Below, piece by piece: positions 17,260 to 35,224 of a stretch of 64,000 nucleotides of DNA (positions within the stretch are counted from its first letter, which is position 1; each line of letters begins with the position of its first letter). The stretch spans positions 2,362,001 through 2,426,000 of the forward strand of contig NZ_JALJXF010000001.1 of NCBI RefSeq assembly GCF_024169925.1, read 5' to 3'. The stretch comes from Methylorubrum extorquens (GTDB lineage Bacteria; Pseudomonadota; Alphaproteobacteria; Rhizobiales; Beijerinckiaceae). Below the pieces are notes generated by a model, which was not told where the DNA came from, ran no database searches, and was given only the letters and a program-made list of their open reading frames with translations. The position numbers were made by a program, and so were the translations under genes.

Positions 17260-17511
17260 ATGCCCGGCATCGACGAGGCCCGTAAGGCCTTGCTCCTTCA
17301 GATGCGGAGATGGACCGCCGACGTCACGGTGCCGTACACCGGAGCGAACCGGCAACTGAACGCCCTGGAGGCCGAGATCAGGGCGATCCGGGCATTCGTC
17401 GACGTGGACCGCCGCATCCGCCAGTCCAATCCCGTCGCGCTGCAGGAGCGGTTCCCAGGCACCGGCATGTACCGCACGTCAGCGCAGGCGCCCGAGATCC
17501 CGGACGCCTGA
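17260..17511 (+). CDS. Small hypothetical protein, helical
   Basis: 83 residues, mostly charged helix (LNALEAEIRAIRAFVDVDRRIRQ), which may form a short coiled coil. It begins 11 bp after the right repeat copy. No domain recognised. Confidence 0.45.
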   Translation: MPGIDEARKALLLQMRRWTADVTVPYTGANRQLNALEAEIRAIRAFVDVDRRIRQSNPVALQERFPGTGMYRTSAQAPEIPDA

Positions 17512-17517
17512 GTTCGA

Positions 17518-17856
17518 TCAGGCCGCGGCCCGCTTGTCGTCGCCGTGGACCTCGCACATGGCCTGAGCCTCGGCTTGGGACGTGCACCGGACGTACGTCG
17601 ACCTGGCGTCAATCGTCCGCCCCGTGTCCCGGGATTGAGCGAGCACCGCCTTCCCGTTCACGACGGCGACGCCGACCTGGAACTTGGCCCGCGAATCCGG
17701 CCAGACCGCGTACGTCATGTCCGCGTCCGAGAATGCGGACTTCAGCCACTTCGTCGGATCGGCCTTGGCCGCCATGGCCTTGTCCATGCTGGCGTTGGCG
17801 CGGTCTATGTATTCCTTGGTCTCCGCGGCGGTGAGCTTGTCGTCGATCCGGATCAT
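17518..17856 (-). CDS. Hypothetical protein
   Basis: 112 residues from ATG 17856 after GGGAGGAGCCACC. The first half is helical and Lys/Asp-rich, and the second half reads as beta strands (FQVGVAVVNGKAVLAQS). Soluble, with no signal peptide. Function unknown. It is convergent with the 83-residue gene, with 6 bp between stops. Confidence 0.5.
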   Translation of the reverse strand: MIRIDDKLTAAETKEYIDRANASMDKAMAAKADPTKWLKSAFSDADMTYAVWPDSRAKFQVGVAVVNGKAVLAQSRDTGRTIDARSTYVRCTSQAEAQAMCEVHGDDKRAAA

Positions 17857-18169
17857 GGTGGCTCCTCCCATTCTGATGATTGGGGCAGGATGCCGGGCGG
17901 GGATTACCGAGAGGCGAACGGCCAAGCTCGACCCGCCGGCGTGGTCACCGACCGATGAGCAGGACCGCTCGAATGCGACGGGACGGGCCAGGACCTCCCC
18001 CTGTCGGCTCCGCACGGCCTCTCGATTGGGGGGTCATACGACGGGCCGTCGCTATTCCCCGCAACGGCTACGCCGTCGTCCACTCCGTTCCCGCCTTCGG
18101 TGCGGGTCGCTCCCGGCCGTCTCCAGGCCTCCCCACGAGGCCGCGCTGGGCGGCCAACGGGAGAGCACC

Positions 18170-19024: not shown

Positions 19025-19100
19025 CCGTCTCCCGAAATCCGCGGGGCGCCCGATTCGCGCCCCGCGAAGACCTGGTACCGATCATCAATTGGAGACCGCC

Positions 19101-19472
19101 ATGCGCAGCGCCATCATCCTCATCCTCCTCGCGACGCCGGCCGCGGCCGCGCCCGAGTACCCCGTCCAACACACGACCGCCGAATATCTGGCGGCCTACG
19201 GGAAGGCGCGCGCCTACGCCCAGGCGCACTCGCCGCTGAAGGCCCGGCCCATCTGTCGGAAGGCGATCGGGCGGCGTTCGTCCATGGTCGTGGAGCAGCG
19301 GTGCCGGGACGTCGCCGCGGGAACGCGGACGAACTGCACGACGCGCGACTGGTGCGTGGCCATGCTCGACAACTTGGCGAGGCACTGCCATTTCTGGCGG
19401 GGCGACGTCCCGTGCGTCCACCCCGAGGACGGCGGGTCGATCAGGAACCCGCCGCCTACGCCCCGTCCCTGA
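19101..19472 (+). CDS. Small secreted protein with six cysteines
   Basis: 123 residues from ATG 19101 (TTGGAGACCGCC upstream). A short signal peptide (AIILILLATPAAAA) precedes a mature domain with six cysteines (RPIC, QRC, NC, DWC, RHC, VPC) that could form three disulfides. It lies 76 bp after the ArdC-like gene on the same strand and may share its transcript. No family recognised. Confidence 0.5.
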   Translation: MRSAIILILLATPAAAAPEYPVQHTTAEYLAAYGKARAYAQAHSPLKARPICRKAIGRRSSMVVEQRCRDVAAGTRTNCTTRDWCVAMLDNLARHCHFWRGDVPCVHPEDGGSIRNPPPTPRP

Positions 19473-19701
19473 CGTCCGTGATCGCGGACGCCGCTTTGGC
19501 GATCAGGCGCAGCCGCATCGAGTCTGCCCGCCTGGCGACGCGCTCGACGTCCGACATCATGGCCTCGATGGCCGCCCGGGCCCGCGCATCGTCCGCCAGA
19601 TCGAGGGCGGCCGCCAGGTTCCGACGGGCCGCCCGGCTCTGAGACGCGGCCTTGCCCAGGGCGAGGCCGGCCTCGGAGGTATCCTCGCCCCGGCGCCTCA
19701 T
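19456..19701 (-). CDS. Small helical hypothetical protein
   Basis: 81 residues, Ala/Arg-rich and entirely helical in appearance. It is the last of five minus-strand genes whose ends and starts overlap by 4 bp (20915 to 19456). It overlaps the end of the convergent Cys-rich gene by 17 bp. Confidence 0.45.
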   Translation of the reverse strand: MRRRGEDTSEAGLALGKAASQSRAARRNLAAALDLADDARARAAIEAMMSDVERVARRADSMRLRLIAKAASAITDVRDGA

Positions 19702-19919
19702 GCTGGGTTCAGGCGGTCGCGCAGGTGAAAGCAGTGGGCCTCCGATCCCGTCGGGACCCTGCGCCGGTTCGGGCCCGGAGCGTGCCGAACGGTCTTCGCG
19801 GGCACCCGCAGCAGGGGTGTCTGATCCACCTTCGCGCCGGTGCGGAGCGCTTCGAGACGGGCCAGCATCCTCAGCTTGTTCGCGGCTCGGATGGCTTCGA
19901 GCGTCATCCTCCCCCTCAT
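19698..19919 (-). CDS. Small basic hypothetical protein
   Basis: 73 residues, basic, with an N-terminal helix (LEAIRAANKLRMLARLEALR). ATGA overlaps on both sides place it in the five-gene operon. Function unknown. Confidence 0.45.
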   Translation of the reverse strand: MRGRMTLEAIRAANKLRMLARLEALRTGAKVDQTPLLRVPAKTVRHAPGPNRRRVPTGSEAHCFHLRDRLNPA

Positions 19920-20233
19920 CGGGCAAGCTCCTTCAGGATCGATGCACGCTCTCCCCGGTGCCGACGGCGCGCCCGGCGGGACAGCCCCGGGGGGCGCTTG
20001 GCGAGTTCGACGAACCGCGCGAAGAGTTCAACCGGCATGGGCTGGAGCGTTACCGCGGGGACGATCATCGCCTGTCGGGACGGCGTGAGGCGGAAGCGCG
20101 TCTCGGTGTAGATCCGGATGCCGGGACCTTCCGATACGCCCGGGTAGAGGTCGCGGAACAAGGGCGGCAGGTAGACATCCCCGTCCAGGATCGGGTTGTA
20201 GGGGCGTTCGATCATGCCCGCCTCCGCCTTCAT
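19916..20233 (-). CDS. Hypothetical protein
   Basis: 105 residues. The middle contains YNPILDGDVYLPPLF and a strand-rich segment, and the C-terminus is a basic Arg-rich tail that may contact nucleic acid. Coupled to both neighbours by 4-bp overlaps. ATG 20215 is an alternative start. Confidence 0.45.
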   Translation of the reverse strand: MKAEAGMIERPYNPILDGDVYLPPLFRDLYPGVSEGPGIRIYTETRFRLTPSRQAMIVPAVTLQPMPVELFARFVELAKRPPGLSRRARRRHRGERASILKELAR

Positions 20234-20502
20234 GACGCGCCTCCAACCAGACTCGCGATGTTGGCCCGCATCCGGTCCGGGTCGACGTCGGTTCGGAAGA
20301 TCCCCTCGACCGGGGCCGCGTCGAACCCGGCCTGGTAGATCGCCTCCAGGTCGGCGCCCCTGGCAAAACCGGCATCGCGTAGCACCTGCAGGGCCGGCGC
20401 CGGAGGCCAGGAGTTTCTGACCTGGTTTGCCTCGAAAGCTGCCTCGACCACCTGGAGGTCGGTCATCGAGCGCAGGTCGGCTAGCCGATCCTCCGCCTTC
20501 AT
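20230..20502 (-). CDS. Hypothetical protein
   Basis: 90 residues, acidic and helical, soluble. It is coupled to the genes before and after by ATGA overlaps. No recognised domain. Confidence 0.45.
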   Translation of the reverse strand: MKAEDRLADLRSMTDLQVVEAAFEANQVRNSWPPAPALQVLRDAGFARGADLEAIYQAGFDAAPVEGIFRTDVDPDRMRANIASLVGGAS

Positions 20503-20915
20503 GATGCCGTCCCCGCCCTGAGAGCTATGTGTCGGATGCGGGCCGGTCCGTCCGTCGCGGCGAGGACGACACCATGCTCGTCCTTCGCCTCCCAGGGCAG
20601 GTAGGCCCGGTACTTTGCCATCCTCAACGCGCGGGCCGTGACGGCGCCGACGTCGTCGGCATATCTCCAGGAAACTTGGAAGGGCTGCCCGTTGACGATG
20701 AGATCGATGGTGCGCTCGTCCGCCGGGATGCGGTCCGTCAGGGCGACGTCGCCGTTGGCCAGCGCCAGCGCCGCGTCGGCGATCCTCGCCCCGAGGTCGG
20801 ACTGGGCGAAGGTCGCGATGACCTCATCCATGTCCTCGTCGTCCGAATGCACCAAGTGCCGGACGACGGCGTCCTGATCCTTCAACTGCTCCCAGTCCGT
20901 AAGCCGGTAATCCAT
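20499..20915 (-). CDS. Hypothetical protein, first gene of a five-gene operon
   Basis: 138 residues from ATG 20915. It starts with an acidic segment (WEQLKDQDAVVRHLVHSDDEDMDEV) followed by strand-rich sequence (TIDLIVNGQPFQVSWRYADD). The frame is open to a TTG at 21101, but that extension is Ser/Arg-rich and lacks a good ribosome-binding site. Function unknown. Confidence 0.45.
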   Translation of the reverse strand: MDYRLTDWEQLKDQDAVVRHLVHSDDEDMDEVIATFAQSDLGARIADAALALANGDVALTDRIPADERTIDLIVNGQPFQVSWRYADDVGAVTARALRMAKYRAYLPWEAKDEHGVVLAATDGPARIRHIALRAGTAS

Positions 20916-21217
20916 GACCGAATCGATCCCCTGTTGAACACCTGGAGATCGTCCCGCCCGGAGACGCGAGCCACCAGGGCCGCGGCCCTTCCGTGCATTG
21001 ATAATCGAGGATTTCGTGATCCCCGACAGGGCGTTGAGCGCGTCCCGCGAGGATGTCAGCACCTGTGCGCACGACGTCAGCACGCGTTTCGAGAGGGGCA
21101 AGCTTGGCTGTGGCGAAATGAATCAGGCGGTGCGGTCGATTTAGGACGCTGCGACCAGGCGAGCGGGAAGGCCGAGTGCTTTCATCCTAATGGCGGCGCA
21201 ACGACCCCCCGCTCGCC
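20916..21217. promoter_or_regulatory. Divergent intergenic region of the mobile element
   Basis: 302 bp between two divergent operons. It carries two direct copies of GTCAGCAC (21055-21062 and 21076-21083, 21 bp apart) around a CTGTGCGCACGA segment, plus AT-richer stretches that could be promoters. It is a candidate control or transfer-origin region beside the mobilisation genes. Confidence 0.35.
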
Positions 21218-22057
21218 ATGGAGATCGACACCGTGTTCCAGAGCCTGCTCGTCTCCCTCCTCGCGCTCTTCGGCTTCGCGCCGGCGACGTCCCATCCCGC
21301 CCGTGTCGGCCCCGGCCCGACCGGGCGCCGTCATGCCGTTCTGCCAGCCCCCAAGGTGACCAGTGCGACAGCGACTGGTCCCGGTCCCGGCGGACGGAGG
21401 CATGCGATCCACCGCACCCCGTCTCCCCGCGTTGCGCAGCCCGTTGTGCAGCCCGTTGCGCAGGCTACCCGGCTCGTTGTGCAGCCCGGGGCGGCACGCG
21501 AGACGGCGCATCAGATGGGCGTCAGGACGACTGGCCTGGTCCGCAAGATCCCCGCGGGTCGCGCCGTGCGCTACTTGCAGCACGAGGCCTGTTGCGCACC
21601 GTCCGATGTCGGCCTGCCCGGCGTCACCCGCGCCGAAGTCGAGCTCGCCCTCGGGCCAGATCTCCATTCGTACGTCGCACTGTGCCTCCGGGAGCGGCAG
21701 CCCCTCCCAAGCATCAGCCCGGCGCTCGAACACCAGAACGACGCCGTTTACCGCGTCCGCCTGAGACGGGCGATGCTGGATGACGTCGAACTCTGGGAAT
21801 CGACCGCTATTGCCCGAGACCGCCAGCGTGCCGAGGCTCAGGAGGCTGGGATCGCCCCGCCGGACGCGTTGCGCATCCCCGCCGAAGTCGAAGCCGTCAT
21901 CGCCCGGAAGGCCGCCGCCGCCGCCGCCCTGCTCAAGAGGCGGTCGGAGAGTGCGGGGGGCGCCACCGGGAAAGGAGGCGCGAACGTGGTTCGCCTCCCC
22001 TCGGCCGAGGTCGCAAAGGCGGAGGAAGCCCCGTCCGTCCCCGCTGGCCCCAAGTGA
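21218..22057 (+). CDS. Hypothetical protein at the head of the mobilisation operon
   Basis: 279 residues. A short hydrophobic N-terminus (LLVSLLALFGFAPA) is followed by a Pro/Val/Gln repeat region encoded by 12-bp repeats (residues ~70-90), then a globular part (about 100-240) and an Ala/Lys-rich tail. Its stop overlaps a possible GTG start of the next gene by 4 bp. The direct repeats inside it may serve as DNA sites as well as coding sequence. Function unknown. Confidence 0.5.
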   Translation: MEIDTVFQSLLVSLLALFGFAPATSHPARVGPGPTGRRHAVLPAPKVTSATATGPGPGGRRHAIHRTPSPRVAQPVVQPVAQATRLVVQPGAARETAHQMGVRTTGLVRKIPAGRAVRYLQHEACCAPSDVGLPGVTRAEVELALGPDLHSYVALCLRERQPLPSISPALEHQNDAVYRVRLRRAMLDDVELWESTAIARDRQRAEAQEAGIAPPDALRIPAEVEAVIARKAAAAAALLKRRSESAGGATGKGGANVVRLPSAEVAKAEEAPSVPAGPK

Positions 22058-22150
22058 AGAAGTATTCCGCCATGACCACTATCGACGTTGCGCACGACAC
22101 GTTGTGCAGTCAGACGGAAAGTAGAGTTGAGCCAGCCATGGGTGCACAAC
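21430..22150. repeat. Cluster of eight GTTGYGCA motifs
   Basis: GTTGCGCA or GTTGTGCA occurs at 21431, 21443, 21455, 21476, 21591, 22086 and 22101 on the plus strand, and at 22143-22150 on the minus strand. The first three are spaced exactly 12 bp. They occur in more than one reading frame and in two genes, which argues for a DNA-level role such as protein binding near a transfer origin. Confidence 0.6.
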
Positions 22151-22599
22151 AGTGTGCCCCCAGCACCCCCGTCCCGGCGGTGGCTTCCCAGTGGCTCCGC
22201 CCCGTGGACCCCTCAGCCAAGAGGCCTCCGGCAAGGCGGCTTCCTCCGACGCCGACGGTGCGGACCGCCCTTGGGCAGGTGTTGGGCATCCGCCTGACGC
22301 CAGACCTGAGAGCCCGCGTCGCCGAGGCGGCCACGGCGTCCGGTTCCTCGGACAGCGCATGGCTCCGGCAAGTCGCCCTCGATGCCCTCGGCGTCGAGAG
22401 CCCCGAGGATGCAGCCTCAGGCCGGCGCGTCCGGGTCGCACCGGAGGACCAGGCGGCCCTGGCAGGGGTCATCCGCGAGATCGGCGAGGCCACGCTGTCG
22501 GCGCAAGCCGGGAGAACCTCCGAGGCCGTCGAGGCCTTGGAGCGGGCGCGGCAGGTCCTCGTTCCGGTCGTGATCGGCTTCGAGCGGAGGGCGCCATGA
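22072..22599 (+). CDS. MobC-like mobilisation accessory protein (ribbon-helix-helix)
   Basis: About 175 residues. The first ~60 residues are Pro-rich and poorly structured. The core (about 75-115) reads LGIRLTPDLRARVAEAATAS, then SDSAWLRQVALDALG, the pattern of MobC/plasmid RHH proteins that bind the transfer origin and help the relaxase. The C-terminal helical part could dimerise. An upstream in-frame GTG at 22054 overlaps the previous stop; ATG 22072 is preferred. The relaxase follows two genes later. Confidence 0.6.
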   Translation: MTTIDVAHDTLCSQTESRVEPAMGAQQCAPSTPVPAVASQWLRPVDPSAKRPPARRLPPTPTVRTALGQVLGIRLTPDLRARVAEAATASGSSDSAWLRQVALDALGVESPEDAASGRRVRVAPEDQAALAGVIREIGEATLSAQAGRTSEAVEALERARQVLVPVVIGFERRAP

Positions 22600-22850
22600 G
22601 CGTGCGCAACACGCTGGACCGGGAGCTTCGCCATGGCGGTCGCCTTCCGGCTCACGTCCGCCGTCGCGAGGCCCGGCGTCTCGCGGCCGCCCTTGCAGCC
22701 GCCGGATACGGTCGCCCGTCATTCGAGCTCCCTGGCGACTCACAGGCAACTCGTGCGGCTTTTCAGGGCGCGTCCATCGCCGTCGCCGTCCTGAACACCG
22801 GACGCGAGATCGGTCGGGCCATCGACAGCCTCTTCGGGAGGCGCGCGTGA
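22596..22850 (+). CDS. Small hypothetical protein in the mobilisation operon
   Basis: 84 residues. It has a very basic N-terminus (HVRRREARRLAAALAAAGYG) and a hydrophobic segment near residues 50-70. ATGA-type overlaps with both neighbours (MobC-like and relaxase) show co-translation. Function unknown; a relaxosome accessory role is an inference from position. Confidence 0.5.
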   Translation: MSVRNTLDRELRHGGRLPAHVRRREARRLAAALAAAGYGRPSFELPGDSQATRAAFQGASIAVAVLNTGREIGRAIDSLFGRRA

Positions 22851-24046
22851 TCAGCGGCGCCATGCGCGGCAAGGGGCTCGGAGACGCCCTCGCCAAGCAC
22901 CTGCTCAAGGCCGAGAACGACGAGGTCATCTTCCTCGCCCCGCGGGGCCTTGGTTCGCCCGACTTGATCGGCCAGATCAGAGAGCTCGTCGCTTTAAGCT
23001 TGGGGGGCCGCACCGACCAGCCGATCTATCACGCGCACGTGGACCCCGAGATCGAAATCTCGGACAACGCGGGCGCGCGCCGGAGGTGGTGGGCTCTCTT
23101 CGAGAGGGAATTCCGCCTCGCGTCGCAGCCCTATTGCGGGGCCGTCCATGTCAAATACGGAAGGGAGCACGAACACCGCGTGTACGGCCTCGTCCGCCGG
23201 GACGGGGGCGTCGTCGACCTGGCATGGGACTACGCGAGGAGGGAGAAGGTCTCTCGAATCGTCGAGTACGAGTACGGGCTGGCGCCCGTTCCCTCCAAGC
23301 ATGCCCGCGCAATCGCCCGGGCCCTCCGCGAGGAGGGACGCGCCGACGTCGCCGACTGGCTTGAGGCCGCCGGAATGCTCGACATCGAGCGCCCTGTGGC
23401 GCCCCTCAGCCCGCAGGAGCGCCTCATTGAGGAGCGCACCGGCATCGCGCTGGCGTCTGTCCGGGCGGCCGCCCTTTCCGCCTGGCACGCATCGGAGGAT
23501 GGCGAAGGCCTCCGGGACGCGCTGCGCGAGCGGGGCCTCCGGCTCCATGCCGGGAGATCCGGGCCTGTCGTCTTCGACGAGGCTGGCCAGGCGCGCTTGC
23601 TCACCCGGCTGATCGGAGCGGCGAGCAAGGCTGCCGACGGCCAAAGAGTTCCGGCGGCCGCCGTCCGGGCGCGCCTCGAAGACGTGTCCCTCACGCAGGC
23701 AGGAGAACAGGCCGATGGACGAGATCATGGAAAGGCTGTCCGCGCAGGAGCGACTGCTGCAGGCGATCCTGTCGGCTTTGGCTCCGTCGGGGGAGCCGGA
23801 GGGGCCGGGTCTGGAGGATCTGATCGAGGCCCTGCAATCCCTGACGACGGCGGTCGAAATGCAGGGCGAGGAGATCCGCTGCCTGCGATCCGTCGTCTCC
23901 AGGGCCTAGGGCTCGTCGACTTGCGGGCCCTTGCGCGTCGCCTTCGAGCGTTCGATCAGCGCCGCCTGGCGCTCCTTGATATGGAGCGCAAGCGCCTCGG
24001 CAATGGCCTGGCCACGACGGACATGTGGGGCGTTGGGCGCCTTTAG
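22847..24046 (+). CDS. Relaxase/mobilisation nuclease (MobP-like), C-terminus apparently extended
   Basis: 399 residues. The N-terminus (MRGKGLGDALAKHLLKAEN) matches the start of alphaproteobacterial relaxase/mobilisation nucleases. A His cluster follows (YHAHVDP at 61-67, H101, and HEHRVYGLV with H108 and H110), as in the metal-binding HUH motif of nicking enzymes. It would nick the transfer origin and pilot the strand. Homology-like sequence ends near residue 285. The last ~110 residues are Gly/Arg/Ala-rich and overlap a plus-strand ORF in another frame and a convergent gene by 141 bp, so the native stop has probably been lost or a frameshift has occurred near 23700. Confidence 0.65.
   Translation: MISGAMRGKGLGDALAKHLLKAENDEVIFLAPRGLGSPDLIGQIRELVALSLGGRTDQPIYHAHVDPEIEISDNAGARRRWWALFEREFRLASQPYCGAVHVKYGREHEHRVYGLVRRDGGVVDLAWDYARREKVSRIVEYEYGLAPVPSKHARAIARALREEGRADVADWLEAAGMLDIERPVAPLSPQERLIEERTGIALASVRAAALSAWHASEDGEGLRDALRERGLRLHAGRSGPVVFDEAGQARLLTRLIGAASKAADGQRVPAAAVRARLEDVSLTQAGEQADGRDHGKAVRAGATAAGDPVGFGSVGGAGGAGSGGSDRGPAIPDDGGRNAGRGDPLPAIRRLQGLGLVDLRALARRLRAFDQRRLALLDMERKRLGNGLATTDMWGVGRL
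23715..23909 (+). CDS. Small coiled-coil hypothetical protein
   Basis: 64 residues with heptad-like helices (IMERLSAQERLLQAILSAL and LIEALQSLTTAVEMQGEEI). It lies inside the doubtful C-terminal extension of the relaxase frame but has a more protein-like composition than that extension. It ends 4 bp into the convergent gene. Confidence 0.45.
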   Translation: MDEIMERLSAQERLLQAILSALAPSGEPEGPGLEDLIEALQSLTTAVEMQGEEIRCLRSVVSRA

Positions 24047-24553
24047 GGGCTCCTTCGCCGGTGGCAGGCGCCCCGCGATCCGCAGGGCGTCCGACATCTC
24101 GGACTCATGCGCTTCGGCGGCGTCGCGCATGTATTCGAGATGGTCCGGCGACGGCCGAGGCTTGTCCTCCGGGTTCCCGAGCGCACGCCACCGCAGGAGA
24201 GTGCGCTCGGAAACACCCAAGGCGTCAGCGGCGCGTACGATCCAGTTCTGGCCGAAGGTCACTTTGGCGAGCAGCACGATCTGCGCGATGACGGGCATCT
24301 TCGGCCGCCATCGGGCGCCCGACGTCCGAGGTGCCGGACGCTGGGGGATCTCATGCTCCGGCACGTCATCGATATTGAGGGACGGCCGGAGCGCCCTCAG
24401 TCCGGCCGGTGGGGGCGCCGCGGCCGGCGGATGCGCCTCCAAGTACGCGACCAGGTCGACCTGCCGGGGGTCGACTTTGCGCTCGCGAGGCGGTCCGAAG
24501 AGCGGCGGAAGGCGCTTGCGCTTGGGAATGGGGAGCCACCTGGGGATGATCAC
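23906..24553 (-). CDS. HTH DNA-binding protein
   Basis: 215 residues from GTG 24553, 4 bp after the upstream stop. A helix-turn-helix is visible at about residues 110-140 (WIVRAADALGVSERTLLRW). The N-terminal third is Pro-rich with a KRKRLPPLFGPP motif, and the C-terminus is basic and helical. Probably a regulator of the mobile element. It overlaps the doubtful relaxase tail on the other strand. Confidence 0.6.
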   Translation of the reverse strand: MIIPRWLPIPKRKRLPPLFGPPRERKVDPRQVDLVAYLEAHPPAAAPPPAGLRALRPSLNIDDVPEHEIPQRPAPRTSGARWRPKMPVIAQIVLLAKVTFGQNWIVRAADALGVSERTLLRWRALGNPEDKPRPSPDHLEYMRDAAEAHESEMSDALRIAGRLPPAKEPLKAPNAPHVRRGQAIAEALALHIKERQAALIERSKATRKGPQVDEP

Positions 24554-24557
24554 GGCG

Positions 24558-24926
24558 TCACATCCCCATCGAGGGGGCGTTGTTTTCCTCGGGCTCAGGC
24601 TCCGCATCCGGCACGAGCTCGGCATCCGCCGCGATGCGCGCAGCGGCCCGCCTTTCGAGGCCGTTGGCGACCTTCCGAAGCTCGCCGGCATTGGCGAGGA
24701 GCTCCGAGATACGCGCATTGAGGACAGTCAGCAGGGCGGCCTCGACCCATTCAGGGACCGGGCGGATCTCGGCGATCCAGTGCGATATCTGAGGCCCTCG
24801 GACCGAGCGGCCCGTGGCCTGTGACAGGGCCGCCGCCAAGGGGGCGATCCACCTCTCGCCGTATGCGCGCGGCCCCACGTAGGACACGAGCCACCGGCGC
24901 GCTTGCTGTTCTCTAGTTGAGGACAT
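24558..24926 (-). CDS. Possible HTH protein
   Basis: 122 residues. The segment WIAPLAAALSQATGRSVRGPQISHWIAEIRPVPEWVEAALL resembles the HTH regions of the other regulators in this element, including the gene at 27026. The C-terminus is acidic. It starts within the end of the upstream 66-residue gene (14-bp overlap). Confidence 0.5.
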   Translation of the reverse strand: MSSTREQQARRWLVSYVGPRAYGERWIAPLAAALSQATGRSVRGPQISHWIAEIRPVPEWVEAALLTVLNARISELLANAGELRKVANGLERRAAARIAADAELVPDAEPEPEENNAPSMGM

Positions 24927-25113
24927 CGGTCGATCCCTTCGGTGTTGCGAGGCCGATCTGGAGTCTGGCGCGGCGTAGCTGCACGAGGGCGCGCTCGCGG
25001 TTGAGGAGCGCGCCGTTCTCAGTGACGGATGGGTCGTCGAGGGGCACTAGAATGGCGCCCTCGGGAAGAGGCTGCTGAGCAGGCGGGGTGGAGCGGCGGT
25101 AGACGATGGGCAC
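24913..25113 (-). CDS. Small hypothetical protein
   Basis: 66 residues from GTG 25113, with EGAILVPLDDPSVTENGALLNRE in the middle and a basic C-terminus. The longer frame upstream is Pro/Thr-rich and belongs to the antisense of its neighbour. Position in a minus-strand operon supports it. Confidence 0.4.
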   Translation of the reverse strand: MPIVYRRSTPPAQQPLPEGAILVPLDDPSVTENGALLNRERALVQLRRARLQIGLATPKGSTDVLN

Positions 25114-25126
25114 CGCGGGCTCCTGA

Positions 25127-25453
25127 TCAGGCGGCTCGACGGGCGTCGACGAGGGGGTAGGCGTTGACCATGGCGCCGTTGGCGACGGTCGCCGCGCTGC
25201 CGTATCGGGTACCGTCCTCGCTCGCCGCCAGCACCTCGCAGGTGCCCCGGTAGCGGGACAGAAGCTCGATGCAGTGGGCCGCGTCGCCCAGGTGCAGATC
25301 GGAGCCATCGGCGAGCGCCTTGATGCAGGCCTTGGTGGCCTTAGACAGTTCCGCGGCGTCGAACGGCAGGCCGGGGGTCAGCATCTCCAGTTCGCCGAGG
25401 TTGGCGATCAGGTTCTCGCGCAGGGCGGCGACGTTGTAGGTCTTGGCGGACAT
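25127..25453 (-). CDS. Hypothetical protein
   Basis: 108 residues, soluble and mainly helical (AALRENLIANLGELEML and LSKATKACIKAL), with two cysteines. Part of the minus-strand run 25864 to 23906. No domain recognised. Confidence 0.5.
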   Translation of the reverse strand: MSAKTYNVAALRENLIANLGELEMLTPGLPFDAAELSKATKACIKALADGSDLHLGDAAHCIELLSRYRGTCEVLAASEDGTRYGSAATVANGAMVNAYPLVDARRAA

Positions 25454-25564
25454 GGCGGTGGTCCTGGTAGTGCCCGCAGGGATCGGGCGGGTGTGGCGGC
25501 CCTCATCGAGACGTCCCTCGGGGCGTCCGGAGGAGGGCCGAGGCGCGTGGCCCCGGCGTTCCGC

Positions 25565-25864
25565 TCAGCGCTTGACGTGCGCGGCAAGGGCCTCGCGATG
25601 CATGGCGATGTGCACGCCGGCGTCGATGATAAGCGGGCGGTCGCGCATGAACAGGGCGACGTCGTAGGCCTCGCGAATGCTGTCCGCGAAGTATGCGGTC
25701 CCCTCGTCACCGAGGACACGGCGGGGATCGTTGCTGCGATAGTCGAGCCGGTACTGGTCCATGCCGAGCGGAGCGCACGTGATGTCCATCTGGCGGATCT
25801 GGGCGATGGCCTCGGCCCTGGTGAGGTACTCGTCCGCGGCGGGGATGAAAGTCTTAGTGGCCAT
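25565..25864 (-). CDS. Hypothetical protein, first of a five-gene minus-strand run
   Basis: 99 residues, mixed alpha/beta, soluble. The 208-bp divergent region upstream (25865-26072) is AT-richer than its surroundings and should hold promoters for this run and for the plus-strand pair at 26073. Function unknown. Confidence 0.5.
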   Translation of the reverse strand: MATKTFIPAADEYLTRAEAIAQIRQMDITCAPLGMDQYRLDYRSNDPRRVLGDEGTAYFADSIREAYDVALFMRDRPLIIDAGVHIAMHREALAAHVKR

Positions 25865-26585: not shown

Positions 26586-27040
26586 GACGGGTCGTCATCC
26601 TCGCGGCCGCGCTGGCGGTCTTCTCAGCGGCATCAGCCCAGACAGGTCCGAGATCCGCCCCGCCTCCCTACTCGACGGGCGACCAGTGGCCCCGCGCCGG
26701 GGACCGCTTCTACTATGCCGTACAGACTCCCGCGGGGCCGGGTCGGACGCGTTACACCTACGTCGACGCCGTCCCGGACGGGCATGCCGGCTGGACGGTG
26801 ACGGTGGCCTGCGGGGAGCACGACGCCCGGACGGGACGGGAGACGTCGCGCCACGTCGCAAGGGGAACCGCTGGGCGGGGGCGGATGCCGGCCATCGGCG
26901 GGGCGGCCGCCTTCCCGGACGGGACGAGGCTGTCCTTCCTGATCGGCCAGGAACCGGGGTCCGACGCCCTCGACCTCACGTCCGAGTTCACGGACGCCCG
27001 CTGCGCCTCGGGCCTGGGGCAGATCTCAACCGGGGACTGA
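26582..27040 (+). CDS. Secreted hypothetical protein
   Basis: 152 residues. A signal peptide (VVILAAALAVFSAASAQ) precedes a beta-rich mature domain (FYYAVQTPAGPGRTRYTYVDAV) with two cysteines (about residues 81 and 144). Coupled to the upstream gene by an ATGA overlap. Function unknown. Confidence 0.5.
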   Translation: MRRVVILAAALAVFSAASAQTGPRSAPPPYSTGDQWPRAGDRFYYAVQTPAGPGRTRYTYVDAVPDGHAGWTVTVACGEHDARTGRETSRHVARGTAGRGRMPAIGGAAAFPDGTRLSFLIGQEPGSDALDLTSEFTDARCASGLGQISTGD

Positions 27041-27445
27041 GGCCGCGCCCCGGGCGGCCATTGCGGCCGCGAATGCCACCTTGCCTTGCTCGGCGGCCCG
27101 GTGGCGGATCGCCTGATGGCGGGCGCGGACGCCGTCGGCGAGATCCTGCTCGCCGGCCGCGGCCAGGACGTCGGCCGCCGTGCGCAGCGCCATCTCCCTC
27201 GCCCACGCCATCGTCCCGGCGCTGGGCGCGCCCTCGCCGATGCGCCAGCGTGAAAGTTTACGCGGGTTCTCGCCGATGCGGTCGGCGATCTTGCCTTCCC
27301 AATGTTGGCCGTGGATCGCCCGGCCGATGCGGGCAAGGGCGGCGTAGGAAGGCGCCTCATCGAGGACGGGGCCGCCATTCCCGCCGGACGGCTGGGACTG
27401 GGCGGGGATGAGGTCGGTGTCGGTGTCGGTGGTGACTTCGGCCAC
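27026..27445 (-). CDS. HTH protein
   Basis: 139 residues. WEGKIADRIGENPRKLSRWRIGEGAPSAG (about 45-75) is a helix-turn-helix with a following wing-like segment, and the rest is Ala-rich helices. Probably a small element-encoded regulator. Overlaps the end of the convergent secreted-protein gene by 15 bp. Confidence 0.55.
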   Translation of the reverse strand: MAEVTTDTDTDLIPAQSQPSGGNGGPVLDEAPSYAALARIGRAIHGQHWEGKIADRIGENPRKLSRWRIGEGAPSAGTMAWAREMALRTAADVLAAAGEQDLADGVRARHQAIRHRAAEQGKVAFAAAMAARGAASVPG

Positions 27446-28591: not shown

Positions 28592-28810
28592 CTACGCGCC
28601 GTGCGCGTCCCCTTCCGCCGGGTCGGGAACGCATCCCTGCCCGAGGGCGGCCGCGGCGAGGATCACGTAAACGGCGAGGTAGGCGGTCCCCTCGCGAGTG
28701 TCCGGTTTCCCGGACATTACGGCGTGCGCGGCCCGCAGCGCGTCCCCGGCGAACAGGTTGGCCTCCTCGACGGGAGTCAGGGCCCGGCGGCAGGGGTCAG
28801 CCTCGGGCAC
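28592..28810 (-). CDS. Small hypothetical protein, last gene of the coupled cassette
   Basis: 72 residues from GTG 28810 (overlapping the upstream gene by 14 bp). Contains ALTPVEEANLFAGDALRAAHAV and a hydrophobic YLAVYVILAAAALGQG segment. Last of a chain of overlapping minus-strand genes that begins near 32652. Confidence 0.4.
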   Translation of the reverse strand: MPEADPCRRALTPVEEANLFAGDALRAAHAVMSGKPDTREGTAYLAVYVILAAAALGQGCVPDPAEGDAHGA

Positions 28811-28967
28811 GGTCGGCCTCCTCGGCGTCGAGGGCACGCACGGCCCGGTCGAGGGTGTCCTCCAGGCGGGCAGGCAGGGGCCGGTCCGGCGGGAGGTCAA
28901 GGAACCAGCGCCGGGTTCGGACGAGCTCGCGGGCGGCCTCGACGACTGCGAGGGCGGCCGGGGTCAT
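28797..28967 (-). CDS. Small helical hypothetical protein
   Basis: 56 residues, charged helices (LAVVEAARELVRTRRWFLDL), soluble. Overlaps its upstream neighbour by 4 bp. Function unknown. Confidence 0.45.
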   Translation of the reverse strand: MTPAALAVVEAARELVRTRRWFLDLPPDRPLPARLEDTLDRAVRALDAEEADRARG

Positions 28968-29053
28968 GCCGCTCTCCACGGCGGCCGACGGGGCGGGTCG
29001 GCCAGGCACAGCCCGATCAGCATGCCCACGACGAATGCCACGGTCACGCTCAC
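28964..29053 (-). CDS. 29-residue membrane peptide
   Basis: GTG 29053 follows CCCCGGAGGCACCT, an excellent ribosome-binding site. One hydrophobic helix (VTVAFVVGMLIGLCLA) is followed by a Pro/Arg tail. ATGA overlap with the next gene supports translation. Confidence 0.45.
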   Translation of the reverse strand: MSVTVAFVVGMLIGLCLADPPRRPPWRAA

Positions 29054-29199
29054 AGGTGCCTCCGGGGATGGCGGGACGCGGCGCCACGGACGGCGGCGGC
29101 GACGGCCTGGGGCGGGACGGCCCCGGGGACGGGTTCGCCCCTCAGGGCCCGGTGGACGTCGGAACCGACGAGGGGCGCCGGGGCGGCGGGGACCGTCAT
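29050..29199 (-). CDS. 49-residue hypothetical protein
   Basis: Short, Pro/Val/Ala-rich with a basic C-terminus. Starts with a 4-bp overlap on the Rz1-like gene. The much longer frame containing it is Arg/Pro-rich and an antisense artefact. Confidence 0.35.
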   Translation of the reverse strand: MTVPAAPAPLVGSDVHRALRGEPVPGAVPPQAVAAAVRGAASRHPRRHL

Positions 29200-29432
29200 C
29201 GCTTCCCCCCGCGGACGATGCCCCTGACCTCGCCGAGCTTGCCGGCGCAGTCGGCGTGGGCGTCGCCTAGATCCTCGACGAACCCGGCGACGTCGCGCTG
29301 GGTGCCGCCCTTCCAACGGGGCGCGCCCGAGCATGTGAGCAACGAGTCCGGGAAGCCGGACATGTTCGGCTTCCCGGCATGGCATCCGGAGAGCGAGGCG
29401 GCGATCAACACGAGGAGGACGAGGCGGGTCAT
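29196..29432 (-). CDS. Rz1-like outer-membrane spanin lipoprotein
   Basis: 78 residues. A lipoprotein signal (MTRLVLLVLIAASLSGC) gives a lipobox with the acylated Cys at position 17. The mature part has GGTQRDVAGFVEDLGDAHADC-GKL, a pattern of phage Rz1/LysC proteins. It follows the coiled-coil membrane protein with a 4-bp overlap, the usual Rz-Rz1 order. Together they would fuse inner and outer membranes in the last step of phage lysis. Confidence 0.65.
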   Translation of the reverse strand: MTRLVLLVLIAASLSGCHAGKPNMSGFPDSLLTCSGAPRWKGGTQRDVAGFVEDLGDAHADCAGKLGEVRGIVRGGKR

Positions 29433-29809
29433 CGGAACCTCTGCAGCGTCTGCCCGAGGACCGGTGCCACGGGCCCGTCGTCCGAGGCCGGAGCGTTCCC
29501 GATCCGGACACGGGCGGCCGCGTTGGCCTTGGCCCGCGTCGCCGCGGCGGCCGAGGTCCGCTCCAGCGCGGCGATGGAGAGCTTCTGCGTCTCGACGGTG
29601 GCCTTCGCCGTCGCCAGGTCCCGGCGGGCGGTGTCGATCTCGTCCCGAATTCGGGACACGAAGGCGACGCCGTAGAGGATGACCGCGAGGCAGATGAGGG
29701 GCACCGCCAGGCGCGGCAGGTAGGCGAACGCCAGGGCGGCCGCCCCCATGGAGACAAGCGCCGCGATGCCGGGGACCGTCCACACCAGGGCGAGCGCGAG
29801 GCCGATCAT
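29429..29809 (-). CDS. Inner-membrane spanin-like (Rz-like) protein
   Basis: 126 residues. Two or three hydrophobic segments (residues ~3-55) are followed by a long charged coiled coil (RIRDEIDTARRDLATAKATVETQKLSIAALERT, ~60-95) and a Pro-containing C-terminus. A membrane anchor followed by a periplasmic coiled coil, directly before an Rz1-like lipoprotein, is the i-spanin layout. The extra N-terminal membrane segments are unusual. Confidence 0.55.
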   Translation of the reverse strand: MIGLALALVWTVPGIAALVSMGAAALAFAYLPRLAVPLICLAVILYGVAFVSRIRDEIDTARRDLATAKATVETQKLSIAALERTSAAAATRAKANAAARVRIGNAPASDDGPVAPVLGQTLQRFR

Positions 29810-30951: not shown

Positions 30952-31185
30952 CAGGCGTCCTCTCCGGAGAGGCAGGTCTGGGCGACCAGCCGGGCGGCCA
31001 TGCCGCCGAGGTTGACGGCGGCGTAGACGGTCGCGAATACCGCCGGCGTGATCGGGGGGGCTTGCCGAGAATACGGACATGCCGAGCTCCACCGCCCCGA
31101 GGACGGCCCTGACGGCGTTGAGCCGGAAGGACCAGGACCGCTTGGCAACGGTCTTGGCGTTGGAGACGAGCTTGGGCTTCCTCAC
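30951..31185 (-). pseudogene. Holin-like gene with a homopolymer frameshift
   Basis: From GTG 31185 (GGAGGT upstream) the frame reads a basic N-terminus, then SFRLNAVRAVLGAVELGMSVFSASPP. There a run of seven C on the coding strand (G at 31054-31060 on the plus strand) shifts it. With six C the frame continues ITPAVFATVYAAVNLGGMAARLVAQ and stops exactly at the lysozyme ATG (TGATG). The repaired 77-residue product has two membrane helices and the position of a holin directly before the endolysin. It may be a mutation, a sequencing error or slippage control. Confidence 0.65.
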
Positions 31186-31511
31186 GGCGAGGACCTCCGG
31201 ATGCGGGTTCGGGTCGGCGCCGGGGGAGGCGCCGGGGGGAGCGGGAATGCCGCGCGCAGGATCTCGCCGTGGTCGTGGAGCGCCCGGGTCAGGTCGGTGC
31301 CGGTCCGGATCAGGCTGAAGCCGAGGTCCCGGTCGACCGGGTCGAGGGCGATGCGCGGAAGGCCGGGAACCTGATCGACCGGCCGGCGCGCCTCCTTGAT
31401 GCGGCTGACGACGTACGTTCCGCCCGCGAGGAGGCCGCCTACGGCGATGGTCCCGATGGCCTTGAGGGCGTTGGCCGGCAGGCCGATGAACGTGGTGAGC
31501 CACTCAGTCAC
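31182..31511 (-). CDS. Single-pass membrane hypothetical protein
   Basis: 109 residues from GTG 31511. One hydrophobic segment (ALKAIGTIAVGGLLAGGTYVV, ~15-36) is followed by a soluble domain and a Pro-rich basic tail. Overlaps both neighbours by 4 bp. It could act with the holin, but this is only positional. Confidence 0.5.
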   Translation of the reverse strand: MTEWLTTFIGLPANALKAIGTIAVGGLLAGGTYVVSRIKEARRPVDQVPGLPRIALDPVDRDLGFSLIRTGTDLTRALHDHGEILRAAFPLPPAPPPAPTRTRIRRSSP

Positions 31512-31957
31512 GGGCAGCCCTCGAAATGATGCGCGCGCGCGTCGTTGCGGCCCTGGTCCCAGATGGCCCGGAGCGCGCAGTAGGTGTCGACGAGGGCGAG
31601 GATGCCGTAGGCTCCGCAGCCCGTGTTCCAGCCGGGGTACCCGTCACGGGCCAGGAGGAATGCCATCCCGGACCAGACGCAGGCGCCGACGGTGGCGGTG
31701 ACGAACTGGAGCGAGGGTGAGTGGCGCTTCGACCCGTTCACCCAGAGGCCGATCATCCGGATAAGGGCGACGCCGAGGAGCGTGGCGCCCCAGGTGCCCT
31801 CGGGGGCGATGGCGGACCAGGCGTCGAACGTCGGACGCAAGAACGTGGCGCCCGGCAGCAGCAGGGCGACCGCGACGCCGAAGAGGACGAGGGCGCCGAC
31901 CCACTCGGCCTCGCGCCGCTCGTGGTGCCCCTGGAAAGGCAAGCCGTACCGGGTCAT
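31508..31957 (-). CDS. Four-helix membrane protein
   Basis: 149 residues from ATG 31957. Hydrophobic segments at about 23-42, 55-80, 88-108 and 118-135, with short loops. Coupled to the genes before and after by 4-bp overlaps in the cassette. No family recognised; phage superinfection or lysis accessory roles are possible. Confidence 0.5.
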   Translation of the reverse strand: MTRYGLPFQGHHERREAEWVGALVLFGVAVALLLPGATFLRPTFDAWSAIAPEGTWGATLLGVALIRMIGLWVNGSKRHSPSLQFVTATVGACVWSGMAFLLARDGYPGWNTGCGAYGILALVDTYCALRAIWDQGRNDARAHHFEGCP

Positions 31958-32220
31958 CGACCGCTCCCCTTGCCGGAAGCCCGGGGTGCCTCGGCCTCGG
32001 CCACAGACTCGGTCTCGGGCTCGGAAGGCGCCTCGACCTCGGGGGCGGGCTCGGGCGCCGGGACGGGCACATGGTCGGCATGCACGACGATGCCGGTCTT
32101 GCCGCACCGGCCGCAGTGGACCTCGCTCCATGTCATCCCCGGGGCGATCAGGGGCGCCATGCCGGCCCTGCAGGCCGGGAGATCCTTGCAGGCATCGAAG
32201 GGGAAGGGCTGGTTGGTCAT
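31954..32220 (-). CDS. Small protein with two Cys pairs
   Basis: 88 residues from ATG 32220. DACKDLPACRAG and HCGRCGKTG could together bind one zinc ion. A Pro/Glu-rich acidic tail (PAPEPAPEVEAPSEPE) follows. Possibly a nucleic-acid or protein-binding zinc ribbon. 4-bp overlaps on both sides. Confidence 0.45.
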   Translation of the reverse strand: MTNQPFPFDACKDLPACRAGMAPLIAPGMTWSEVHCGRCGKTGIVVHADHVPVPAPEPAPEVEAPSEPETESVAEAEAPRASGKGSGR

Positions 32221-32582
32221 GGCGCGTACTCCGCGTCGAGGCACGTCCGCTGGCGGCGCGGGACGGGCGAGGAGGGACCGGCCGGCGCCATGTCGACGCG
32301 CACCTTCGTCGCGAGGACGGTGACGACGGCCCCGTCCACGAGGACCAGCTTGAGCCCCTCGGCGACGACGGCCCCGGCCGCGTTGGCGACCCCCAGGCCG
32401 CCGAGGATGGCGAGGTGCCGGCGGATGCGGCCGACGTTGACGGAGCGCGTCCGCAGCGCCGTCATGGCCGCCCCGTCGTCGTCGCCCGCGACGGTCACGC
32501 CCAGGGCGCGCTCGGCATACCGGCGGACGGCGTGGTCGGTGACGCGAGCCAAGATGCCGGTAGGATTGCGGCGTTGCTCCAT
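32217..32582 (-). CDS. Hypothetical protein
   Basis: 121 residues. The N-terminal half resembles a small helical domain (VTDHAVRRYAERALGV, then RTRSVNVGRIRRHLAIL), and the second half is strand-rich. The N-terminal pattern is seen in phage proteins of unknown function. Starts a run of 4-bp-coupled genes. Confidence 0.45.
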   Translation of the reverse strand: MEQRRNPTGILARVTDHAVRRYAERALGVTVAGDDDGAAMTALRTRSVNVGRIRRHLAILGGLGVANAAGAVVAEGLKLVLVDGAVVTVLATKVRVDMAPAGPSSPVPRRQRTCLDAEYAP

Positions 32583-32652: not shown

Positions 32653-32765
32653 GGTGACGGTCCCTGGTGGCAGGGAGAGCGTCAGGCAGCGGGCCCTATT
32701 CGGATAGGGACCGGGCGGCAGGTCATTGGCCCGATGGTCCCTGATCGAGGGAACCAGAACGACGA

Positions 32766-32797
32766 AGCCCCGCCAAACCTTTCGGTCGGGCGGGGCT
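32766..32797 (-). terminator. Hairpin terminator after the primase gene
   Basis: Nine-bp arms AGCCCCGCC (32766-32774) and GGCGGGGCT (32789-32797) enclose a small inner ACC/GGT stem. On the minus strand it is followed by TCGTCGTTCTGGTT. It lies ~70 bp past the primase stop and ahead of the small-gene cassette. Confidence 0.6.
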
Positions 32798-32864
32798 CCC
32801 CTGAGATGTGCTGCATCTAGGACCTGTCGGCGAGGGCGATTATACTCCCGTTATCCCTGGCGTT

Positions 32865-34862
32865 TCAAGCGGATACGAGGGCGACGGTGGAGGTTCCGGC
32901 ATCCAGGAGACGGGCCAGGAAGTCGGGTAGCGGGACCGGGATGGACGAGGCGCGCGGGGCGGAACGGAGCCCAGGGAAGGCCGCCACGGCACCTCCGCTG
33001 CGAGGTCCGCTACCCGCGTCCATCCCTGTCCCGGATGCCATTCTCGGGCTTCCCTGGGGATCGAGGGTCTGGGACAGGATCGAGATGGCAGCGGGACGGG
33101 CCGGAATGGCGTCGAGGGGGGGGTCCGAGGCGGTCGGTTCGCCCGAGGGGGGCAAGGGCCCCGGCACTGCCACTATAGAAGTGGTCGAACCGTGAGGAGA
33201 GGAGACGGACCCGTCCTCCGAGGTCTCGCAAGCGGTTTCGACGGCGGCCTCCGTCACGGTCTCGGCCACGGTCTCGGCGGGAACCTCGGCGGCCTCGGCC
33301 ATGGCCCGGCGCAGGCTTGTCTCGCCCCGGCGCCCGACGAACGCCTGGACGATCTCGCGCATGGACCTGCCGGCCGCCTGCAGGGCGAGGGCCTCGCGAC
33401 CGTCGGCGAGTCTGGCGGATACCGTGACGGCGAGGGGCGTGGCGCCGGCCTCGGCCCGGCGATCCGCCGAACGCTGCCTCTCCGACCGCACCACGCCACC
33501 CAGGAGAAGGGCCCCGGCACCGGCTGCGCGCAGGACGTCATCGGAGACGTCGGACAGGCCGAGCAGGCTCAGCATCTTCGACTTGGAGTATTCGTACATG
33601 ACCGGACGCTCGACACCCTCGTGGTCACGGGTCTCGCCGTTCTCATGGCGCCGCAGAACCCGCTCCAGGGCGCCGAGGCTGGTCCGGAGCTCGCCCTCGG
33701 GCAGGCCCGCGGGACCGGCCAGACGCTCCGCCCACGAGGCGGCGGTCCCGCCCTCGGCCTGGGCGAGGGCGCAGGCGCTCAGGAACGCCCACAGGTCTCG
33801 CTTCCCGACATCCGGGGTCCCGCCCCACATGATGCGCACGGCGTCGAGGGCCTGGACGATGCCCGGCCAGTATCCGCCGGAAATCCGGCGGGTCGGCTGC
33901 CGATCCTCGTCGACGGGAAGGCCGGCGGCCTCGGCCTCGGCGCGGCGGGCCTGGCGACCGGCCTCGCGGATCTCGTACTCCGCCTGGCGCTCGGCCTGGA
34001 GGGCGGCCATCTCATCGCGGGTGAAGGGGAGGAACGCCGAGGCGAGATCCTCGAAGTCGTGCCGCTCGACGTCCGCCCAACTCGCCGGCCAGACCAGCCG
34101 GGCGACCTTGCCGCTCTTGCCATTGTAGCTCCCGGCCAGGCGCAGGACGCGGGCCGTGTCCGTCGCGGCGCGGTCGAGGCCGGTCCCGCGCCAGACCGCC
34201 GCCATCTGCTCCTCGTGGGCCACGACCTCGGGGTCCTGCCGACGGGTTCCGCCGGATGTCCGTACGACCTCAGCCGCCTTGCCGCCGGCGGGACCGAGCA
34301 TCCACCGCTGGACCGCCCGATGCCGTCCGGTGACCCCCTTTGCCGCCATGAGCGGCTGATGAAGCCACACGAGATGCAGGCCTCGTCCGCTGAACAAGAT
34401 GTAGCTGGGAAGCGGCTTCCCGGCGGCGCGCAGGCGCTCGATCAGGATGCCTGCCATCTCCTCCGGGTCGAGCCCACGGAACTCGGCCTGGTCGTGGCAG
34501 TCGCAGTCCGCGATCAGTGACTGCAACTGGACGAGCGAGGTCGAACCCCGGGCGCCATGGAACCTCTGCATCGAAAGATGCGTCGCCCAAAGCAGGGCGT
34601 CCGAGGTGGCGAGCTCGGAGACGGTGACGACACGCGTCTCCCACCGATGCTCACCGTCGCTGCCCTGGGACACCCGCATGAGGCTGACCTTACCCTTGAC
34701 GCCGGGCAGGTCGGGGTGGAGCACGCGGGCGTGGGCTGCGCGGGGGGAGGCGTTGACTCGGGTCTGGTACTCGCCGCGCATGGCAACGAGCTCGGCCTCT
34801 GGACGCAGCATCGGTGCGAACGGATCGAGGCGTGCGGGAGCGATGGTAGGGAAGTGGAACAA
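32865..34862 (-). CDS. Archaeo-eukaryotic-primase-type replication protein
   Basis: 665 residues. Three primase-polymerase motifs appear in order: the metal-binding DCD (D119, D121) in SLIADCDCHD; SGRGLHLVW (S158, H163), the nucleotide-binding S-x-H type motif; and a third acidic residue near D235 in TDTARVLRLAGSYNGKSG. A helical domain (~285-440) and a low-complexity Ala/Glu/Ser/Pro tail follow. Such proteins act as plasmid or phage replicases/primases. It is the only replication gene in the window, so it is the likely initiator of the 17-35 kb element. Dyads lie upstream at 35083-35156. Confidence 0.75.
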   Translation of the reverse strand: MFHFPTIAPARLDPFAPMLRPEAELVAMRGEYQTRVNASPRAAHARVLHPDLPGVKGKVSLMRVSQGSDGEHRWETRVVTVSELATSDALLWATHLSMQRFHGARGSTSLVQLQSLIADCDCHDQAEFRGLDPEEMAGILIERLRAAGKPLPSYILFSGRGLHLVWLHQPLMAAKGVTGRHRAVQRWMLGPAGGKAAEVVRTSGGTRRQDPEVVAHEEQMAAVWRGTGLDRAATDTARVLRLAGSYNGKSGKVARLVWPASWADVERHDFEDLASAFLPFTRDEMAALQAERQAEYEIREAGRQARRAEAEAAGLPVDEDRQPTRRISGGYWPGIVQALDAVRIMWGGTPDVGKRDLWAFLSACALAQAEGGTAASWAERLAGPAGLPEGELRTSLGALERVLRRHENGETRDHEGVERPVMYEYSKSKMLSLLGLSDVSDDVLRAAGAGALLLGGVVRSERQRSADRRAEAGATPLAVTVSARLADGREALALQAAGRSMREIVQAFVGRRGETSLRRAMAEAAEVPAETVAETVTEAAVETACETSEDGSVSSPHGSTTSIVAVPGPLPPSGEPTASDPPLDAIPARPAAISILSQTLDPQGSPRMASGTGMDAGSGPRSGGAVAAFPGLRSAPRASSIPVPLPDFLARLLDAGTSTVALVSA

Positions 34863-35224
34863 GGCGGCGACGGTCCAGTGACGTCGCAGCGGGGCAGCAC
34901 GACCCGACGCGACCCAGGAATGATCCCACCGACTCCGGAAATCTGCCAGACCTAAGCTTTGACGGGCCCCGGAAAGGCCTCTTCGCCCCAGGAGACAGAC
35001 CTAGGTGATGGGATGCACTCAACAATGGACAGCCATCGCCAGGGGGCCTGTCGGTTCGTTCGTCGATGACGACGGCAAATACCTATTCGGCATCCGGAAT
35101 AGCGTCCCGAGCCTCCCCAGCGGCCCATCCCAGAAAATCCGTTCGATATAACGAACTGCATGAATATTAGGCAACCTCGCACTTGGCCGCCTCATTCGCG
35201 GGCAATCATGCCCAGGAGTCACGG
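34863..35224. promoter_or_regulatory. Control region upstream of the primase gene
   Basis: No gene is supported in these 362 bp. An imperfect dyad with arms CTATTC and GAATAG (35083-35102) and the dyad GTTCG / CGAAC around ATATAA (35141-35156) lie in an AT-richer stretch. They look like repressor or initiator sites, and the second shares its half-site with the operator at 28486. The region is a candidate replication origin or promoter. Confidence 0.45.

Follow-up and report, generated by a model that had tools for sequence, protein, structure and literature searches.

The conversion of a virus into a mobilisable element was found described only for P1-like phage-plasmids which, in the accessible text of Pfeifer and Rocha (2024, PMC10879196), become mobilisable plasmids. 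Elements of the iMOB type, as outlined in the available part of their description (PMC11389934), move without a conjugation channel of their own, and the accessible text on phi1207.3 of Streptococcus pyogenes (PMC4260502), a prophage of about 50 kb with resistance cargo, reports conjugation-like movement. Here we analysed a window of 64,000 nucleotides from Methylorubrum extorquens (contig NZ_JALJXF010000001.1, G000:C1:2362001-2426000 in our numbering; genome of 5.26 Mb in four contigs), in which an earlier note had singled out a capsid-less stretch of about 17.7 kb joining plasmid and phage functions. The principal result is that this stretch is part of a real and well-bounded island of 87.0 kb, derived from a relaxase-bearing tailed prophage and carrying cargo in the slot of the morphogenesis genes. 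We consider it likely that the stretch is the right arm of a temperate tailed phage of the GpA-type terminase lineage, endowed with its own relaxase, MobC and ArdC, and that this prophage became an integrative island in which metal, arsenic and stress genes took the place of its morphogenesis genes; a virus may thus have turned into a mobilisable resistance island.

As far as the accessible text goes, the phage-plasmid conversion (PMC10879196) is the nearest precedent: phage genes are lost, and a relaxase or an origin of transfer (oriT) and cargo are present, as here. The window island differs in being integrative, with attachment (att) sites at a tRNA gene, and in that the relaxase is already found in an apparently complete prophage. 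With iMOBs, as the available part of PMC11389934 presents them, it shares an integrase, att sites, a relaxase, MobC, an oriT-like site and the lack of any conjugation channel found, but its backbone is a tailed-phage genome. The prophage phi1207.3 retains terminase, portal and capsid genes according to the accessible text, and the word "relaxase" is absent from the main text of that paper (PMC4260502). Cryptic or grounded prophages (for cryptic ones see PMC3224125) and phage satellites also have an integrase, phage genes and an incomplete virion set; unlike them, the island combines a large cargo exactly in the morphogenesis slot with a relaxase/oriT-like module. The parts are individually known; what may be new is their combination, a relaxase with a candidate oriT in an apparently complete integrative tailed prophage, plus its capsid-less cargo islands. 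No description of these islands, or of a relaxase-bearing Methylobacterium prophage, was among the matches listed in a literature search that left subscription papers and preprints aside.

The ends of the island were placed by tRNA scans and self-comparison. On the left, an attL-like sequence at 5098..5143 (forward strand) is identical over its 46 bp to the 5' part of a tRNA(CAT) gene (one match in the window, none expected); the intact tRNA(CAT) lies at G000:C1:2454037-2454112. ARAGORN assigns this tRNA to Met; it could also be an Ile-CAT tRNA. Adjoining it, at G000:C1:2452535-2453902, is an integrase with an intact open reading frame (ORF) and matches to PF00589 and to PHROG integrases, in which the R/HxxR/Y residues of tyrosine recombinases can be read by eye. 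Judged from the sequence, the island therefore appears to have its own recombinase between direct repeats, as iMOBs do, and since the integrase and both att copies remain, it is probably still able to excise. Left-arm phage genes precede the integrase, with relatives in genomes G578 and G551 and, by eye, in L016. This other arm, the integrase and the intact tRNA all lie beyond window position 64,000, so that the 17.7-kb stretch is not the self-contained element that the earlier note had taken it for. Its claim that capsid, terminase, tail and integrase genes are missing holds within 17.5-35.2 kb, except that an integrase is present in the same island; its concern that structural genes might lie just outside the window was borne out only for left-arm phage genes with the integrase. 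The gene lists read for the 87-kb island showed no terminase, portal or capsid gene.

A gene-content comparison of 19 relaxase loci and one primase locus places the island in a family of prophages. G577 combines the arm, in which the lysis proteins and the primase are different ones, with genes for capsid, protease, portal, terminase and tail in a 50.6-kb prophage bounded by an exact 50-bp repeat at tRNA(CAT), the tRNA also used by the window island. The viral contig L010 is prophage-like and, near its primase, encodes a GpA terminase, a lambda-type portal and an E-type capsid. Its collinearity with the window extends from 34.9 kb to 26.6 kb; it has the lysis genes, and carries an AAA ATPase operon instead of a relaxase at the relaxase position. 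The window island is a derivative of this G577/L010 family, with the same gene order and homologous proteins on both arms. It has its integration site in common with G577, and its integrase is 49% identical to that of G577 versus 34-40% to those of G578, G551 and G556.

In four further loci (G578, G551, G556 and G547), the arm is present but lacks the capsid, protease, portal, terminase and tail set listed for G577. Almost all of the window arm recurs in G551, which has another primase and no Rha. In Leaf117 (L011), which we infer to be the same Methylobacterium genome as G578, the primase is followed directly by the counterpart of window part 27.3-18.1 kb, the lysis and Rha genes being absent. 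Separate occurrence of the modules, which the earlier note had named as a sign of patchwork, is thus partly seen (lysis genes without relaxase in L010, the reverse in Leaf117), yet G577 has them together. G049 shows ArdC, MobC, the relaxase and early genes, then metal genes; among the other 13 relaxase loci, 11 show only the relaxase, with or without MobC, of this phage, and G589a and G628 one further match each. Relaxase matches at E<=0.001 occur in 24 of the 111 genomes of the genus. Three islands are inserted at tRNA-Pro(CGG): those of G578 (64.1 kb; repeat of 62 bp, 95% identity), G551 (60.8 kb; 85 bp, 86%) and G556 (76.6 kb; 58 bp, 95%). In these and in the window island, cargo between the left and right arms replaces the tail, head and packaging genes, and the capsid-less layout is shared by separate branches of the relaxase tree and by insertions at two different tRNA genes. 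Scars of the loss are visible as a truncated tail gene in G578 and G551 and a prohead-protease fragment in G551. In G615 (L177/L178, pair coordinate about 18109-18645), the TerL start is fused in frame, by eye, to part of a phage tail protein, which resembles a scar left when the morphogenesis block was deleted.

The cargo itself is variable. Metal-resistance genes occupy 36700..64000 (Czc/Cus-type efflux, P-type ATPase and others, by eye) and continue to ars/arsH at about 2,443 kb of G000:C1. Of the 48 window cargo genes on the right-hand side of the arm, 30 have a G578 or G551 relative (many 78-97% identical in amino acid (aa) sequence, some much less so) and 18 have none; most arm genes are 60-90% identical to their G551/G578 counterparts, some helix-turn-helix (HTH) genes 37-51%, and the holin-like protein 97%. 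The cargo order in the window is inverted relative to G551. An insertion sequence at 35761..36690 (22-bp inverted ends, IS5-like by eye), possibly the agent of this inversion, separates the phage arm from the metal cargo, next to a truncated cation-efflux gene (CDF-like, by eye; 35326..35766, forward strand) at the junction. A second cargo block (6119..17056), on the opposite side of the right arm from the main cargo, encodes by eye a sigma factor/anti-sigma pair, LysR, sulfite-oxidase-like enzymes, YeiH-like/TDT-like transporters and a phosphoglycerate-mutase-like protein; 11 of its 13 genes have an orthologue in the G556 island at 84-98% aa identity, those at 13489 and 13937 being without one. 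The differing similarity of cargo and arm, the cargo genes without relatives and the inverted order would all be expected if unrelated phage, plasmid and metal islands had accumulated independently at tRNA hot spots. We hold such a patchwork to be quite improbable: all four islands whose ends were mapped carry cargo within their att boundaries, between the two phage arms, and phage and mobilisation modules already occur together in G577.

The mob operon begins with a 279-aa gene of no family (21218..22057, forward strand), followed on the same strand by a candidate oriT (22127..22162), which consists of the motif TTGAGCCAGCCA and, after it, an inverted repeat whose 10-bp arms, differing at one position, enclose a 4-nt loop. 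The MobC/NikA-like relaxosome protein (22204-22599, forward strand, from a conserved GTG start) matches PF21983 below the cut-off (E 5e-5, 23.9 bits versus 27), as the relaxase (399 aa; 22847-24046, forward strand) does PF03432 (E 1.4e-4, 22.6 bits versus 24.6). The relaxase has a predicted MobM-like fold with an HUH triad (H101/H108/H110), as expected of MOBV/MobM-like relaxases, and a His18 that is invariant in 27 of 27 sequences and conserved in at least 90% of a set of 63. His18 stands at the presumed nucleophile position; the catalytic nucleophile of MobM of pMV158 (MOBV) is a His according to the accessible text of PMC5863519. The likeness is one of predicted fold and of this His, whereas at the sequence level the relaxase profile had no match at E<=0.1 among solved-structure sequences, and structural alignments give 9-10% identity. 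The candidacy of the oriT rests on motif conservation and paired changes, hairpin pairing being preserved though the arm sequence varies. A scan of viral contigs for the motif gave 95 matching contigs, close to chance by a rough estimate, the G577 prophage contig among them. An oriT in the divergent region 20915-21217 was rejected, as no 11-base word was common to more than three of eight loci. The relaxase locus of G589a (G589:C41), possibly another branch of the family, shares the oriT-like motif and has a hairpin with 15-bp arms, but little other detectable phage homology. Relaxase matches occur in six of 72,556 plasmid records, the best being a 2.8-Mb M. bullatum replicon (58.6%), and in none of 50,697 phage records; a scan of viral sequences with the single relaxase sequence as query gave no match either. 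The window relaxase lies outside a clade of 12 relaxases whose loci show no right-arm phage genes besides MobC.

Movement of the island would most likely proceed in steps: the integrase would drive excision, the His-type relaxase would nick the oriT-like hairpin upstream of mobC, and transfer would use the conjugation channel of another element, ArdC possibly shielding the incoming DNA. We tentatively raise the possibility that a Methylobacterium tailed-phage lineage is dual-mode, spreading either as virions or through a helper's conjugation channel by means of its oriT, MobC and His-relaxase. Capsid-independent transfer would then have allowed the morphogenesis block to be discarded more than once, and metal, stress and defence genes to fill the slot, producing large mobilisable resistance islands. 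If true, this would be a conversion of phage to mobilisable island without a plasmid stage. The concrete series at hand, from relaxase-free phage through relaxase-bearing phage to islands in which other genes stand in for the capsid block, bears on how virus genomes may become mobilisable resistance islands; the layout may account for the origin of part of this genus's metal-resistance islands, and the candidate oriT and relaxase make the conversion testable in a harmless soil/leaf bacterium. The idea in the earlier note of a phage-plasmid remnant or mobilisable satellite survives as a prophage derivative with relaxase, MobC and candidate oriT, one that is integrative and of which the stretch is only one arm.

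Quite possibly, if short of probably, the island is an ordinary grounded prophage, whose arm has been decaying since the deletion and is kept, immobile, for the metal-resistance genes that landed in it. The broken or missing lysis genes described below, the varied truncation of the tail gene among relatives and the failure to find a helper in the host would all fit. Against immobility stand the exact 46-bp att repeat with an open integrase, the preserved hairpin pairing, the recurrence of the layout on separate relaxase branches and at two tRNA genes, and the dN/dS of MobC and relaxase, among the lowest in the arm. Across the window, G578 and G551, dN/dS values (NG86, no significance test) are 0.13-0.19 (MobC), 0.24-0.26 (relaxase), 0.25-0.32 (a 152-aa gene) and 0.31-0.41 (ArdC); the holin (0.26), the primase (0.36) and the spanins (0.59-0.65) are represented by one comparable pair each. 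The relaxase gene overlaps an antisense HTH gene at its 3' end (23906-24046), an overlap also seen in G578 and G551.

Several observations weigh against the favoured interpretation of a prophage-derived island that can still move. The holin and the 152-aa gene match the relaxase in dN/dS, the differences being without significance test, and some of the arm divergence may be older than the loss of the capsid genes. G577 has a weak hairpin score, no anchored stem is found in G556, and phage contig L134 has no oriT-like motif. The whole host genome has neither VirB4 (PF03135, the sole mating-pair-formation gene tested; the control matched one of 14 genomes) nor a GpA terminase (PF05876; control matching three of 14), and hence no helper was seen in the host strain. 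An empty tRNA(CAT) site was not found, synteny breaking near sdhA. The phage-arm DNA is 69-89% identical to Leaf117, no higher than sdhA between host and Leaf117 (89%), which does not indicate recent transfer of the arm. Finally, the capsid-less form can persist without a relaxase, since 15 of 19 terminase-less relatives show none in the stretch fetched, and 14 of these 15 have an AAA ATPase instead, as a grounded prophage would allow.

These counts come from a search without selection on the relaxase, in which the tail gene adjoining the terminase (phrog_1924) served as query and matched in 26 of the 111 genomes. A fetched locus was usable, as 21 were, if it had a tail-gene match and extended at least 5.5 kb past it towards the terminase; this excluded G568 and G631, which were too short, and G591 and G603, which had no match in the table. 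The sample also omits viral contig L010 and the weaker tail-gene places, among them G533, G598, G609, G621, G542 and G534. A TerL relative is absent from 19 loci and present in two (G577 and G588c), the relaxase occurring in four and one of these, respectively. Absence of a terminase was judged with two queries each for GpA-type TerL, portal and capsid, TerL being sought across the whole stretch; gene lists were read for ten of the 19 (G578, G551, G547 and G556, and, for one side and larger genes only, G565, G615, G547b, G624, G588a and G616). Among the fetched loci, the arm without morphogenesis genes is thus the common form, usually with an AAA ATPase rather than a relaxase, and the relaxase as a general reason for its persistence is unsupported. 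Gene order near the tail gene varies, the primase and tail gene being swapped in G623, G588a, G530a and G586.

The lysis block, on the reverse strand, bears on a further explanation, that the island is a satellite packaged by a helper tailed phage and using its own lysis genes. It comprises Rz1-like outer and Rz-like inner spanins (29196..29432 and 29429..29809, both by PHROG), a 77-aa small membrane-protein gene with a lysozyme (PF00959; 30401..31185), and a holin-like membrane protein (31508-31957; phrog_28727, E 2.7e-5) with a 4-bp-coupled neighbour (together 31182..31957). A scan of viral sequences with the single holin-like sequence as query gave no match. Holin, spanins and lysozyme are kept in G551; G556 retains a lysozyme and has genes that look spanin-like by eye; and related phages (G577, L010, L133) exist, as a satellite would need. 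Packaging is nevertheless unlikely: the islands (60.8-87.0 kb) are larger than the 50.6-kb prophage, the nearest complete one, and no small terminase or capsid-redirecting gene was recognised in Pfam and PHROG scans of 30 ORFs, 19 of them without any match at E<=0.001. Moreover, the membrane-protein gene and, near its C-terminus, the lysozyme are frameshifted in the window (the G551 and L010 copies are intact), and the block is absent from the Leaf117 island. Release by host lysis, which the earlier note had suggested, is disfavoured because of these frameshifts and that absence.

Of the 30 ORFs scanned, further tiny ORFs being outside the scan, three reach a Pfam curated cut-off; Rfam gave no matches. 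ArdC, MobC-like protein, relaxase, Rha/KilAC, holin, lysozyme and spanin pair were all located where first proposed (relaxase and MobC below cut-off), and the estimate of more than 20 unrecognised small genes is about right. The tiny coupled genes are reflected in five 4-bp overlaps (29429-29432, 31182-31185, 31508-31511, 31954-31957 and 32217-32220). The replication protein (32865..34862, reverse strand) is primase-like by a weak match (phrog_2478, E 5.7e-4), its proposed archaeo-eukaryotic primase (AEP) type being unconfirmed; it is 86% identical in Leaf117 and 66% in prophage L010, has relatives in four of the 149 genomes of the family sample (host counted), and found no useful match among solved-structure sequences. 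Its matches in 56 of 72,556 plasmid records are weak, each of the first 20 listed covering at most half of the protein, as does one weak match in 50,697 phage records.

At the left of the arm, ArdC (18170-19024, forward strand; PF08401/PF18818) is preceded by small genes at 17260..17511 (forward; 61% in the Leaf117 island) and 17518..17871 (reverse; 84%). A second ArdC-like stretch lies on the same chromosome (G000:C1:1555865-1556506; 68% DNA identity to the window ArdC gene). Early small genes fill 19089..21101 (19089 forward; 19456, 19698, 19916, 20230 and 20499 reverse), the gene at 20230 being 40% identical to a relative in viral contig L010 (L017). Beyond the relaxase come HTH-type and other early genes (23906..25864, reverse), two conserved genes encoding a 170-aa and a secreted 152-aa protein (26073..27040, forward), an HTH-type gene (27026..27445, reverse), the Rha/KilAC (ANT) antirepressor (27546-28394, reverse; PF09669 and PF03374) and two pairs of small conserved genes (28592..29087 and 31954..32582, reverse). 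Near the left end of the island, a small gene (5430..5684, forward) is 39% identical to one in the phage arm of the G556 island. The Leaf117 island also contains patatin-like, MBL-fold-like and E1/JAB-like genes (by eye; L011:4545-9208), reminiscent of an anti-phage system. At about 2444-2447 kb of G000:C1 (L117:17951-20000 and on), a set of three genes (315, 84 and 593 aa) is perhaps a defence system; look-alikes, by eye, of two of them adjoin a tail-gene fragment and ars genes in G616.

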